Shown in pieces: positions 11,606 to 15,805 of a stretch of 64,000 bases of DNA. The stretch is from Atopobium fossor DSM 15642. GTDB taxonomy: Bacteria; Actinomycetota; Coriobacteriia; Coriobacteriales; Atopobiaceae. Numbering within the stretch: position 1 is the first letter of the stretch; every line of letters starts with the position of its first letter. The stretch is from assembly GCF_000483125.1 (NCBI RefSeq), contig NZ_KI519553.1, forward strand, positions 283,124 through 347,123. Direction: 5' to 3'. Position numbers and translations under genes: made by a program. Below the pieces are notes generated by a model. The model did not search any database. It saw only the letters and a program-made list of their open reading frames with translations, and was not told the DNA's origin.

Positions 11606-11679
11606 TTTGAGTTAATTCGTTTACCCCTGTCGAATCAAGATTAACTCCTCTCCTAAACGTCTTGAGTTCGACCACTTTG

Positions 11680-11722
11680 GCGCCGGCGGTGTTCCTCCTT
11701 CCTTCACCTCCGGCGCTCTTTT
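11680..11722 (+). terminator. Intrinsic terminator after eno
   Basis: Arms GCGCCGG and CCGGCGC (7 bp), extended inward by GGTG/CACC after one mismatch, close a 13-base pyrimidine loop. TCTTTTT follows. It lies 75 bases past the eno stop and upstream of the DUF3793 gene. Confidence 0.85.
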
Positions 11723-11781
11723 TGTACCTATCCGTGGCAATGCTGTGTTGTAGTTGCAGCATTTTGGGTTTGGAGGTTTGC

Positions 11782-12480
11782 GTGAGCGGTGCCAGTATTT
11801 TGAACGTCCGTGGTGACTCAGAGTATGTGTCTTCACTTGCACCCTATGAACCCATGTTATGCCACGCTTTCATTTCTACACTTGTTCGCTGCGCTTCCGG
11901 TGTTATTGCAAAAGTAAAGCCTGCGGCATTGTTTAACTTTAGGCCTGAGGCGGCATGTTGCATGTGGCAGGGTTCATACCTGCGAGCAAAAACTTGTGAA
12001 CTTTTCCGCGTCTCTACGCGAGAAATTTCTGCCTATGGTGTGTCTCTTATGACGGTTGGTAGTTGTCGTGGTCGCGTAGCCATTGTGGCATGGCGTCCTG
12101 AGTTGGTGGACAGTCTCCTACAAGATGTAGACATTTGTACATTTTTAGACAAAGCGGGCTATCCAACCACCTCATCTACAGCACTTATGCGTGCTTTTAG
12201 GTCACGTCTTGCTCGTTATTATTACGCAAAGTCTGCAAAGCAATCTTCAAAAGATATATCTGTTGAGTTTCCACATGAGATGGGTGTGGTGTTTGGATAT
12301 CCGCTTGAGGATGTGCTGGGTTTTATACATAAACAACCCCATACCTGTAGGGGTGCTTGGTGTGCGTATGGAGATGCTGAGCTTGCACGACAACGGTTTA
12401 TGCAGTTAGCGCGCTTTGAAGGAGCTTGTTTAAAGCGTTTTAGATCAGGTAGCAGCCTTGTGGAACTTCTTGCTAGATAG
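11782..12480 (+). CDS. DUF3793 family protein
   Basis: The 232-residue cytoplasmic protein of unknown biochemical function carries the family hallmark FPHEMGVVFGYPLEDVLGF near residues 160-180, followed by a Cys-containing segment TCRGAWCAYGD. The GTG at 11782 is chosen as start because GGAGG lies 5 bases upstream. Longer in-frame extensions run back through the eno terminator and are not credible. A flavodoxin gene follows 94 bases downstream. DUF3793 genes next to flavodoxin genes are a recurrent arrangement in Firmicutes and Coriobacteriia, which suggests a redox or metal-linked role. The function is not established. Confidence 0.85.
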   Translation: MSGASILNVRGDSEYVSSLAPYEPMLCHAFISTLVRCASGVIAKVKPAALFNFRPEAACCMWQGSYLRAKTCELFRVSTREISAYGVSLMTVGSCRGRVAIVAWRPELVDSLLQDVDICTFLDKAGYPTTSSTALMRAFRSRLARYYYAKSAKQSSKDISVEFPHEMGVVFGYPLEDVLGFIHKQPHTCRGAWCAYGDAELARQRFMQLARFEGACLKRFRSGSSLVELLAR

Positions 12481-12574: not shown

Positions 12575-12979
12575 ATGAGTAAGGTAGCAGTTGTATTTTG
12601 GAGCCAAACCGGCAACACTGAGGCCATGGCACAGGCTTTGGCACAGGGTGCCGATACCGATGCGATTGATTACAGCGATTTCTCTAGTGCTAAGGTTGCT
12701 GATTACGACGCATTTGCATTTGGTTGCCCCGCTATGGGTGATGAGGAACTCGATCCCGATTTTGAGGAGTTGTGGGACGAGTGCATTGGTGAGTTTGGCG
12801 ACAAGCCTGTTGTGCTGTTTGGTTCTTATGACTGGGGTAGCGGTGAGTGGATGGACAGCTGGAAGGAAAATGCTGAGTCTGCTGACGTAAACGTGATTGA
12901 CACCATCATTGCTAACCTTGAGCCTGAGGGTGACGTTTTGGATGCTCTTCGCACTGCTGGCGAGAAACTCGCTGAGTAG
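12575..12979 (+). CDS. Flavodoxin
   Basis: This short-chain FMN-binding electron carrier has 134 residues. The phosphate-binding loop WSQTGNTEAMA lies at residues 10-20. The Asp/Glu-rich stretch GDEELDPDFEELWDE and the isoalloxazine loop FGSYDWGSGEWMDSW follow. It transfers low-potential electrons, probably replacing ferredoxin under iron limitation; the partner enzyme is not in the window. Translation should be strong, since AAAGGAGGAAG precedes the ATG. It follows the DUF3793 gene and may be co-transcribed or driven by a promoter in the 94-base gap. A terminator follows at 13046-13072. Confidence 0.95.
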   Translation: MSKVAVVFWSQTGNTEAMAQALAQGADTDAIDYSDFSSAKVADYDAFAFGCPAMGDEELDPDFEELWDECIGEFGDKPVVLFGSYDWGSGEWMDSWKENAESADVNVIDTIIANLEPEGDVLDALRTAGEKLAE

Positions 12980-13109: not shown

Positions 13110-14948
13110 CTACAGCATCTTTGTCTGATATAACCCTGCATCTTTAAAGCCTTGTGCACGATAATAAGCACGAGTGCCAATGGAACTAATTACATTCAGG
13201 CTGGTATATCCTGCTTGTTTGGCAAGCTTGCTTGCGTGGACGAGCAACCTTTGACCCAATCCCTGATGTTGTGCCGAGGCACCTTCTGTGCCTAATGACA
13301 ATGCTTGACCATATACATGTAATTCTCTAATCATGGCCTGTCCAGGTTGTGCCAGAAGCTCGTTAATGGCAACATCGCAGTTTCCAGCTTTGAGTTTTTC
13401 CCAATGAGGAAGTGAGAGTCTACAAAAACCAGCAATCTTATTGTCTGGTGTGACCCACTGCAAAAAATGCTCATCACTTACTGCAGTGATATATGCATAA
13501 TCTTGCAGCTTGAGTTCATGTGCGCTTACGTGTTGCTGATTAATTTCTCTAAAGCGAATTTCCTGCACCTGTGATGCTAGGTGTTTAGTGGATAGTTGTT
13601 GTTCAACCATTTGGCGTAGGTTTGTGTGTTTGTTTCCTACCAGGATATCTGTAGAGCTAATATCGCGAATCATACGAGAAATACGTATATAGGTAGGAGC
13701 AGTTAGTACGTCATAAACCAATACTTCTACCAACTCGTCTTTTGAGTAGGGTTTCCATGCGCCTGCATCGTATTTTTGAACAAGCTGTGTTCCGTCTACC
13801 AGTGCACAAGGGTACAGCTTAATCTCGTCTGGTAAATAACCTGGGTCAGATACAAAGGTATTGAAGTCTTGCTTGTCTGTCTGTGGCGTTGCGCCTAACA
13901 GATTAACCATAAGATGCGAGTGAATCTTGAATCCATAGAGACGGATGAGTGAGAATGCGCGTTTAATTTGAGCAGTACTCATCTGTCGTAGATTGGCGTT
14001 AAGAATATCTTGATGTGTACTTTGAATACCAATTTGGATTTTGGTACATCCGAGCTGTCTAAACATCCGCAGATTATCAGGAGAGATAGTGTCCGGACGG
14101 GTTTCTATAACCAGTCCAACCACACGGCAAGCTGCCGTTTCATTATTGTGTTGCTGACGCAGAAGATCTGCGAGCGTGGCATCCATATATGACCATGCCT
14201 CTTGGTGTGGTGCGCTTGTATCGTATAGCTTGTGGAATGCTTGATTGTAACTAGCGCTACCTGCATTAACAGCTGCTTGCTGTGTAGCAACAAAGTTAGA
14301 GAGCGCTTCTTCTGTATTTTGTAACCCACAAGAGTGATACCAATCCATGCGTTTTTCTATACGTGCTGGAGAGTTGGGCCATTCATTAAGCGCACGGAAC
14401 AGTTCGCTTACAAACCAGTATTGGTAGCGTGCAGGATAGTCACTCCAGGTTCCCCCCAGCACAATGAGTTCGACTTTATCGGTAGAGTGTCCCATCTGAT
14501 GCAATGCGCGTAGGCGTGCAGCAACTTGTATATAAGGATCAAAAAACGCTTGTTCCGCACGTTGGCAGGCAGGCTCATTGGCAATATAGCTTTTGGGCAT
14601 ACGTAGGTCACAAGGGCAATAGATACAGTTGCTGGAGCAGGTGTGTGGCCGTGTAATAACGGTAATGGTGGCTACGCCAGAGGCTGTGCGACGGGGCTTC
14701 ATACGTACCGATTGCACAAAGCGTGATTCCAGTTCTGGTGTAATACCCCAGGAGTTCCATAACTCTTTATTTTGATCTTTGACCTGCAAAAAATAAGGCA
14801 GCACCGCTCGTTTAGGAATCTGTTTTCTTTGGGTCTGATTGGCTTTGCTGCTATGAATGCGCAGCAAAGCTTCAAGTTGATGAGTATCAAGAGCACCGTT
14901 AGGTTTATTACGGAGCTGTTGGAGTATGTCTAAAATGAGTTCATTCAT
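13110..14948 (-). CDS. elp3: Elp3-family radical SAM/GNAT tRNA wobble-uridine modification enzyme
   Basis: The 612-residue protein has a radical SAM domain followed by a GNAT acetyltransferase domain, the layout of Elp3. Elp3 makes 5-carboxymethyluridine at wobble position 34 from acetyl-CoA and SAM. The cluster motif CSSNCIYC (CX3CX2C) lies near residues 103-110, and SYIANEPACQRA follows. The GNAT domain (about 470-612) has the acetyl-CoA loop QHQGLGQRLL and the C-terminal VISSIGTRAYYRAQGF, both diagnostic. No other Elongator subunit is needed in bacteria. The gene is divergent from a Trm9-like methyltransferase 68 bases away. A TATAAT box lies exactly 6 bases before the ATG and there is no ribosome binding site, which indicates a leaderless mRNA. 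Confidence 0.93.
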   Translation of the reverse strand: MNELILDILQQLRNKPNGALDTHQLEALLRIHSSKANQTQRKQIPKRAVLPYFLQVKDQNKELWNSWGITPELESRFVQSVRMKPRRTASGVATITVITRPHTCSSNCIYCPCDLRMPKSYIANEPACQRAEQAFFDPYIQVAARLRALHQMGHSTDKVELIVLGGTWSDYPARYQYWFVSELFRALNEWPNSPARIEKRMDWYHSCGLQNTEEALSNFVATQQAAVNAGSASYNQAFHKLYDTSAPHQEAWSYMDATLADLLRQQHNNETAACRVVGLVIETRPDTISPDNLRMFRQLGCTKIQIGIQSTHQDILNANLRQMSTAQIKRAFSLIRLYGFKIHSHLMVNLLGATPQTDKQDFNTFVSDPGYLPDEIKLYPCALVDGTQLVQKYDAGAWKPYSKDELVEVLVYDVLTAPTYIRISRMIRDISSTDILVGNKHTNLRQMVEQQLSTKHLASQVQEIRFREINQQHVSAHELKLQDYAYITAVSDEHFLQWVTPDNKIAGFCRLSLPHWEKLKAGNCDVAINELLAQPGQAMIRELHVYGQALSLGTEGASAQHQGLGQRLLVHASKLAKQAGYTSLNVISSIGTRAYYRAQGFKDAGLYQTKML

Positions 14949-14954
14949 ACTCGC

Positions 14955-14960
14955 ATTATA
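14955..14960 (-). promoter_or_regulatory. -10 box placing elp3 on a leaderless transcript
   Basis: On the minus strand TATAAT ends 6 bases before the elp3 ATG, so transcription should start at or within one base of the A. No Shine-Dalgarno sequence fits between. The -35 region is not well conserved. Confidence 0.6.
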
Positions 14961-15004
14961 CGCAGGGGTTGTGTAACTTGCCTATCAGGACACGTAAGCT
15001 GGGG

Positions 15005-15010
15005 TAAAAT
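15005..15010 (+). promoter_or_regulatory. -10 box placing the Trm9-like gene on a leaderless transcript
   Basis: TAAAAT ends 6 bases before the ATG at 15017, the same geometry as the elp3 promoter on the other strand. There is no ribosome binding site and the -35 is weak. Confidence 0.5.
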
Positions 15011-15016
15011 TCACGT

Positions 15017-15805
15017 ATGAATAGTTCTTACAACACCTCTTGTAGCGTACAAACTGCTCGTCAGCTGAGTTGTATTACCTCTGAGTTCTACAGGCAGCAG
15101 GCTCAGAGTTTTTCTGCTACGCGTCAGGCACCTTGGCAAGGATGGCAGCGCTGTTTGGATGCTATGCCACTTTTTAGTGCAGCAGATAATCCCTCCATAC
15201 TTGATGTGGGATGTGGCAATTTGCGCTTTGCACGTTTTTTGATACAACAAGCAAAAGTTGCGCCTACAGCATATTTTGCGGTGGATAATTCTGAGCTATT
15301 GGTACAAAGTGGAACTACAAATATACAAGCTATTTTTTCCAAAGTGGATATAGTAGATAACTTATTGGATGGAACATTAGCTTCTCATTTGAATATGCCG
15401 AGCTGTGATCTTGTTGTCTCTTTTGGTTTTATGCATCATGTACCAGGAGCACAAAATCGAATACAACTTTTAAAAACACTGCTACATAAGGTTAAATCTG
15501 GTGGGTATCTCTGTGTTTCATTTTGGCAGTTTATGCATAGTCCAAAGTTGGCAGCAAAAGCTTTGCAAACAACAGCGATTGCCCTTACACAATTGCAACT
15601 TGATGCTCATGCATTAGAGGAAAACGACTATCTTATAGGCTGGCAAAATCAAACAAATTCTTGGCGTTATTGTCATCACTTTACACAAAACGAGCTTGAA
15701 AACCTTCTTGTTCATATGCGTCCTCAAGCCCGCGTGTGTGCACAGTTTAATGCAGACGGTAAAGAAGATAACTTGAATCATTATGTAGTGTTACAACGTT
15801 TGTAG
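15017..15805 (+). CDS. Class I SAM-dependent methyltransferase, Trm9/ALKBH8-like
   Basis: The 262-residue SAM methyltransferase has motif I ILDVGCGN near residue 61. Several features resemble Trm9 and the ALKBH8 methyltransferase domain, which convert cm5U34 to mcm5U34 in tRNA. The pre-motif segment QSFSATRQAPWQGW matches the HFS-TR-PW block of Trm9. DLVVSFGFMHHV matches its acidic strand plus paired histidines, and KSGGYLCVSFWQF follows. The gene is divergent from elp3, whose product would supply the cm5U substrate. Eukaryotic Trm9 needs Trm112; no homologue is seen here. The methyltransferase fold is certain. The tRNA role rests on these motifs plus the neighbour, so it is inference. Confidence 0.8.
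   Translation: MNSSYNTSCSVQTARQLSCITSEFYRQQAQSFSATRQAPWQGWQRCLDAMPLFSAADNPSILDVGCGNLRFARFLIQQAKVAPTAYFAVDNSELLVQSGTTNIQAIFSKVDIVDNLLDGTLASHLNMPSCDLVVSFGFMHHVPGAQNRIQLLKTLLHKVKSGGYLCVSFWQFMHSPKLAAKALQTTAIALTQLQLDAHALEENDYLIGWQNQTNSWRYCHHFTQNELENLLVHMRPQARVCAQFNADGKEDNLNHYVVLQRL

Follow-up and report, generated by a model that had tools for sequence, protein, structure and literature searches.

A divergent Elp3 and Trm9-like methyltransferase gene pair in the Coriobacteriia as a predicted minimal bacterial pathway for wobble uridine modification

The pathway formed by Elp3 and Trm9 is itself already known from eukaryotes and some archaea. Bacteria are not known to have the other subunits of Elongator. 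Trm9-type enzymes convert cm5U to mcm5U (PMC5372719, PMC7694415), and archaeal Trm9 works with Trm112 (PMC7694415). Haloferax volcanii and Sulfolobus solfataricus have homologues of both enzymes with Elp3 standing alone; the two genes are clustered in S. solfataricus (PMC2584109, PMC5372719), mcm5U34 has been described from H. volcanii according to one review (PMC7663514, which cites van Tran 2018), and archaeal Elp3, when reconstituted, makes cm5U34 alone (PMC13315578). A 2020 review assigned cm5U, mcm5U and mcm5s2U to archaea and/or eukaryotes and not to bacteria (PMC7694415), and a 2017 review stated that bacterial relatives of the Trm112-dependent methyltransferases were not found (PMC5372719). 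Another review of 2020 placed bacterial Elp3 in one specific clade, Dehalococcoides, and noted that direct evidence of what it makes was lacking (PMC7663514); Dehalococcoides mccartyi is hard to culture and has yielded no evidence of xcm5U (PMC7663514), and the open-access literature examined describes no partner methyltransferase for its Elp3. We likewise found no report of a Trm9-type partner of Elp3, or of mcm5U, in bacteria in the open-access literature, although subscription papers or preprints may hold one. The MnmE/MnmG pathway (with MnmC or MnmM) also targets U34 at C5, in the same set of tRNAs, and has thiolation by MnmA in common with the pathway discussed here, but it uses different enzymes and chemistry (cmnm5U, nm5U, mnm5U) and is missing from the Coriobacteriia.

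The window, the whole stretch of 64,000 nucleotides that was analyzed and to which all unprefixed gene coordinates refer, belongs to a Coriobacteriia genome of 1.65 Mb that is close to Atopobium. It encodes Elp3, a radical SAM and GNAT enzyme of 612 aa, on the minus strand (13110..14948) and, divergently transcribed on the plus strand, a Trm9-like class-I SAM methyltransferase of 262 aa (15017..15805) whose gene is single copy in the genome. The two open reading frames face each other across 68 bases (14949..15016), as a preliminary description of this DNA had claimed, and the interval may hold a putative shared promoter region. Upstream of the pair, a DUF3793 protein (11662-12480) is encoded beside a flavodoxin gene (12575-12979).

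That the Elp3 is full length, as also claimed in the preliminary description, is borne out by a TIGR01211 score of 396.8 bits (curated cut-off 350 bits) spanning positions 18-522 of the 522 in the profile, and by the Pfam domains radical-SAM, Radical_SAM_C and GNAT, the last matching residues 486-601. The motif CSSNCIYC in the translation provides the radical-SAM cysteines (Cx3Cx2C), which are present in 99 of the 103 Elp3 sequences from the loci that we fetched, and the predicted product of the enzyme in tRNA is cm5U34. Its closest PDB relatives are the Elp3 proteins of D. mccartyi (5l7j, the top match), Methanocaldococcus infernus and eukaryotes, and the alignments to them skip residues about 189-264 of the query, where the Elp3 has an insertion of some 75 residues (about 190-264) without counterpart in solved Elp3s. 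The D. mccartyi enzyme, likewise bacterial and stand-alone, is without this insertion, which is also present in other Coriobacteriia Elp3s: the median distance between two motifs flanking it is 121.5 residues for 80 locus sequences, versus 50 in two other Actinomycetota Elp3s. The long insertion also distinguishes the Coriobacteriia system from that of archaea, as does the methyltransferase, which forms a distinct and more divergent branch.

Pfam and NCBIfam match the window methyltransferase to generic SAM-methyltransferase families only, and class-I methyltransferases are very diverse. Both points would suit an enzyme that acts on an unrelated substrate, be it a different site in RNA, a small molecule or a protein, and adjoins Elp3 through shared regulation or inheritance only. 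We regard such an enzyme as very unlikely given how closely the two genes keep together and given the Trm9-specific similarity described below. Among 298 Coriobacteriia genomes, 173 have both genes and 123 neither, while Elp3 occurs alone in two and the methyltransferase alone in none (Elp3 matches, counted by hand, were strong in 175 genomes and weak or absent in 123), and presence agrees in 296 of 298. Both exceptions can be explained by gaps in the assemblies: Elp3 begins about 0.4 kb from the end of a contig in G199 and about 1.2 kb from one in G096, relatives of which carry the methyltransferase a few kb away. A Fisher test of the co-occurrence gives 3e-83, a figure that ignores shared ancestry; more telling is joint presence or absence inside single families and genera. 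One genome (G056) is without both genes while four relatives of the same genus have both, two members of one genus (G134 and G112) differ in presence of the whole pair, and the same is seen within families for G200/G295 and G001/G017. G061 carries the adjacent pair in a family whose three other sampled genera have neither gene.

The physical linkage is conserved as well, and it is kept while flanking genes and orientation change, which also speaks against an unrelated substrate. Of 110 fetched loci, 103 have Elp3 adjacent to the methyltransferase or close by; the set includes near-duplicates (some genomes belong to two collections, and many Collinsella are similar to one another). The genes are on opposite strands in 100 of these 103 loci, separated by a median of 80 bases, and in tandem in the remaining three (L011, L013 and L026). 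In 57 trimmed loci they are the only gene pair found throughout, the next gene cluster occurring in at most 21. Because of the 103 adjacent or nearby loci and the 296 matched genomes, chance pairing is excluded, and the pairing first suggested from a single locus proves to be real and class-wide, with named carriers including strains of Atopobium, Collinsella, Slackia and Senegalimassilia. Long open frames had suggested an Elp3-methyltransferase fusion, which we rejected since these are overlapping frames in high-GC DNA. In two Eggerthellaceae a cysteine-desulfurase-like gene (class V aminotransferase) lies between Elp3 and the methyltransferase (L035:4665-5858 and L070:4763-5935); its position fits a link to U34 2-thiolation, and is only a hint of one.

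The family of the methyltransferase was assigned with profiles. A profile built from 50 homologous sequences has as its best PDB match the Trm9 of Yarrowia (5cm2, 2.7e-7), with the runner-up at 5e-4, a gap of about three orders of magnitude. In the opposite direction, a yeast/Yarrowia Trm9 profile searched against the whole genome returned a single match, the window methyltransferase (E 7e-5), and profile-profile comparison of the methyltransferase family with Trm9 by hhalign gave a probability of 98. Direct identity between the window protein and yeast Trm9 is 18-24%; the yeast sequence used matches 5cm2 at 245 bits and, with its numbering offset by one throughout, carries the published letter at each of the five residues. 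The motifs FSATRQAPW, DVGCGN and FMHHV, on which the first identification relied, are present and are signatures of the family across the 50 homologues.

The same identification would have been undermined had the protein grouped with UbiE/COQ5 or some clade other than that of Trm9. Profile searches run both ways place it with Trm9. CmoM catalyzes carboxyl methylation of a U34 derivative in bacteria, so that this type of reaction on bacterial tRNA is already known, and the E. coli enzyme resembles the one predicted here in being a class-I methyltransferase. UbiG and CmoA, moreover, score about 20 bits with the family profile, as might be expected if the protein were of UbiE/COQ5, UbiG/BioC or CmoM type and its resemblance to Trm9 superficial. 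With the same profile, however, Trm9 scores 33-41 bits, against 1.5 for UbiE, 9.8 for BioC and 6.6 for CmoM, which in addition needs cmo5U made by CmoA/CmoB. Six E. coli methyltransferases (UbiE, UbiG, BioC, CmoA, CmoB and CmoM) reach at most 2 bits with the Trm9 profile and at most 21 bits with the Coriobacteriia profile, and NCBIfam models score the window protein far below their cut-offs (UbiG 15.0 bits versus 102.95, BioC 15.4 versus 184.95). Counterparts of the Trm9 residues R29 and H115, conserved in the window protein, occur in two and none, respectively, of the six E. coli enzymes. Already disfavored by these comparisons, a UbiE-, UbiG- or CmoM-type assignment appears extremely improbable.

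The Trm9 relationship is further supported by homologues of 234-242 aa in six genomes of other Actinomycetota (families f51, f60 and f89). Their scores are 71-85 bits against the Trm9 profile and 72-89 bits against that of the Coriobacteriia family, and the bridging family gives 75-81 bits for Trm9 versus 35 for UbiE. In four of the six genomes the methyltransferase and an archaeal-type Elp3 are close together and divergently oriented (in one case with a gene between), and the contig of each remaining genome ends near the methyltransferase; a methyltransferase beside an archaeal-type Elp3 was found in two of these other Actinomycetota families. The link from Trm9 to the Coriobacteriia family thus runs through intermediates that keep the Elp3 neighbor. 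One Actinomycetota genome also contains an NAD-synthetase-like frame (L148:9178-11049) that appears to carry an intein-like extra segment relative to the copy in L150. A maximum-likelihood tree of a small set of divergent sequences has long branches and does not resolve the clade, and the case for Trm9 membership is made by the profile scores, the bridging sequences and the conservation of functional residues, not by the tree.

In yeast Trm9, both tRNA binding and kcat suffer when R29, H115, R241, Y243 or N271 is mutated (PMC5372719). Four of these five residues are conserved in the window protein, where R36, H140, R217 and N254 align with R29, H115, R241 and N271, and the position of Y243 is occupied by C219; this position is variable in the bridging homologues too (C, Y, F or V). 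Residues invariant in the 50 homologues include S31, F32, R36, W40, D63, G67, H140, H141, R217 and H220, and N254 is at least 90% conserved. An AlphaFold2 model of the protein (pLDDT 95.8) contains two short strands, 204-208 and 216-220, which in the model would stand where the Trm9 lid would be. Structure searches recover the class-I methyltransferase fold, with many unrelated methyltransferases ranking as high as Trm9, a result that also suits an unrelated substrate; 5cm2 is fifth by Foldseek E-value and absent among the 50 matches listed by VIA-align. In the structure and profile check proposed for this product, profiles favor Trm9, and fold searches with the model confirm the fold but do not discriminate Trm9.

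The distribution of other U34 enzymes is consistent with a role of the pair in wobble modification. MnmG was found above cut-off in one of the 298 Coriobacteriia genomes, which is not the genome of the window, and in none of the six other Actinomycetota genomes with the methyltransferase; MnmE was above cut-off in none of 21 genomes. The sole MnmG among these 298 genomes (G071, C8:4785-6713) may represent horizontal gain or contamination. MnmA is present in the window genome (304 bits). An anti-correlation of the pair with MnmG inside the class was considered and rejected, because genomes without Elp3 do not have MnmG either; since Coriobacteriia without the pair are without MnmG as well, members of the class can do without both pathways, or a third pathway exists in it.

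The preliminary description had also suggested that the bacterial pathway dispenses with Trm112, and this stands in so far as a stand-alone Trm112 was not seen; the missing MnmE and MnmG fit the proposed pathway too. In the organism's own genome one candidate, a PF03966 match over cut-off, was rejected as it lay inside PriA, and there was no PF03966 match outside PriA. In 40 relatives no stand-alone Trm112 (about 60 aa) was seen, all PF03966 matches being in open frames of at least 437 aa. A highly divergent Trm112-like partner may exist. Because no stand-alone partner was found we call the window protein Trm9-like and do not file it as Trm9. In E. coli K-12 (L165) a Trm112-like gene, ycaR (b0917), is four genes from cmoM (b0921), which may be coincidence.

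Given the activities of archaeal Elp3 and of Trm9-type enzymes (PMC13315578, PMC5372719, PMC7694415), formation of cm5U34 by Elp3 and of mcm5U34 by its neighbor is the simplest reading. From the gene identities, family relationships, conserved residues, co-occurrence and absence of MnmE/MnmG and stand-alone Trm112, we infer that Elp3 alone would use SAM radical chemistry and acetyl-CoA to place a carboxymethyl group on C5 of U34, giving cm5U34, and that the methyltransferase, a predicted cm5U34 carboxyl methyltransferase, would use SAM to methylate the carboxylate to mcm5U34 without a stand-alone Trm112. Thiolation by MnmA at position 2 in the tRNAs for Lys, Glu and Gln would give mcm5s2U34, and the pair would replace the missing MnmE/MnmG. 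The same two catalytic families operate in eukaryotic Elongator and Trm9-Trm112, and R29, H115, R241 and N271 of Trm9 are shared; the system differs in being bacterial, in having no stand-alone Trm112 and a cysteine at Y243, and in thiolation, which is by Ctu1/2 in eukaryotes and here would be by MnmA. We are fairly confident that the two genes constitute a minimal bacterial wobble-uridine pathway from cm5U34 to mcm5U34, with MnmA thiolating where appropriate. Counted against it are the modest identity to Trm9, the unresolved tree, the cysteine at Y243, the dependence of characterized eukaryotic and archaeal Trm9 on Trm112 (PMC5372719, PMC7694415), the lack of MnmG also in Coriobacteriia that do not carry the pair, and the weak in vitro activity of D. 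mccartyi Elp3 (PMC7663514).

The substitution at Y243 would also fit a pair that acts on U34 with a different end product, formed through methylation of an amine by the methyltransferase or conversion of the Elp3 product to an amide such as ncm5U, mcm5U not being the main product. Amino-type U34 side chains are a known feature of bacteria, and Bacillus pairs a radical-SAM enzyme with a methyltransferase (MnmL/MnmM). MnmM is reported to methylate nm5s2U (PMC9976899), and yeast trm9 mutants are reported to accumulate ncm5U (PMC3110198). We nevertheless think a different product unlikely: amino-type side chains are made by MnmE and MnmG, which are missing, the Trm9 substrate-binding residues are conserved, and the Elp3 carries the radical-SAM and GNAT domains of cm5U-forming enzymes.

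Returning to the mcm5U34 pathway, a broader and rather doubtful possibility is that of a class without MnmE/MnmG, much of which makes mcm5(s2)U34 by a two-enzyme Trm112-independent route, with the class-specific Elp3 insertion perhaps letting the enzymes act as a complex that hands over cm5U34-tRNA to the methyltransferase. Many of the named carriers are known from the human body. Judging from their genes, carriers of the pair within this class of bacteria from the human gut and mouth probably complete their wobble base by the route so far described in yeast, humans and some archaea, and not in the usual bacterial way. The presence of the pair in cultured anaerobes makes the long-open question of bacterial Elp3 function testable. 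If the proposed pathway is true, Trm112 would not be a universal requirement for Trm9-type enzymes, and the Coriobacteriia would offer a minimal model, consisting of two proteins, in which to study a pathway that is linked to disease in humans.
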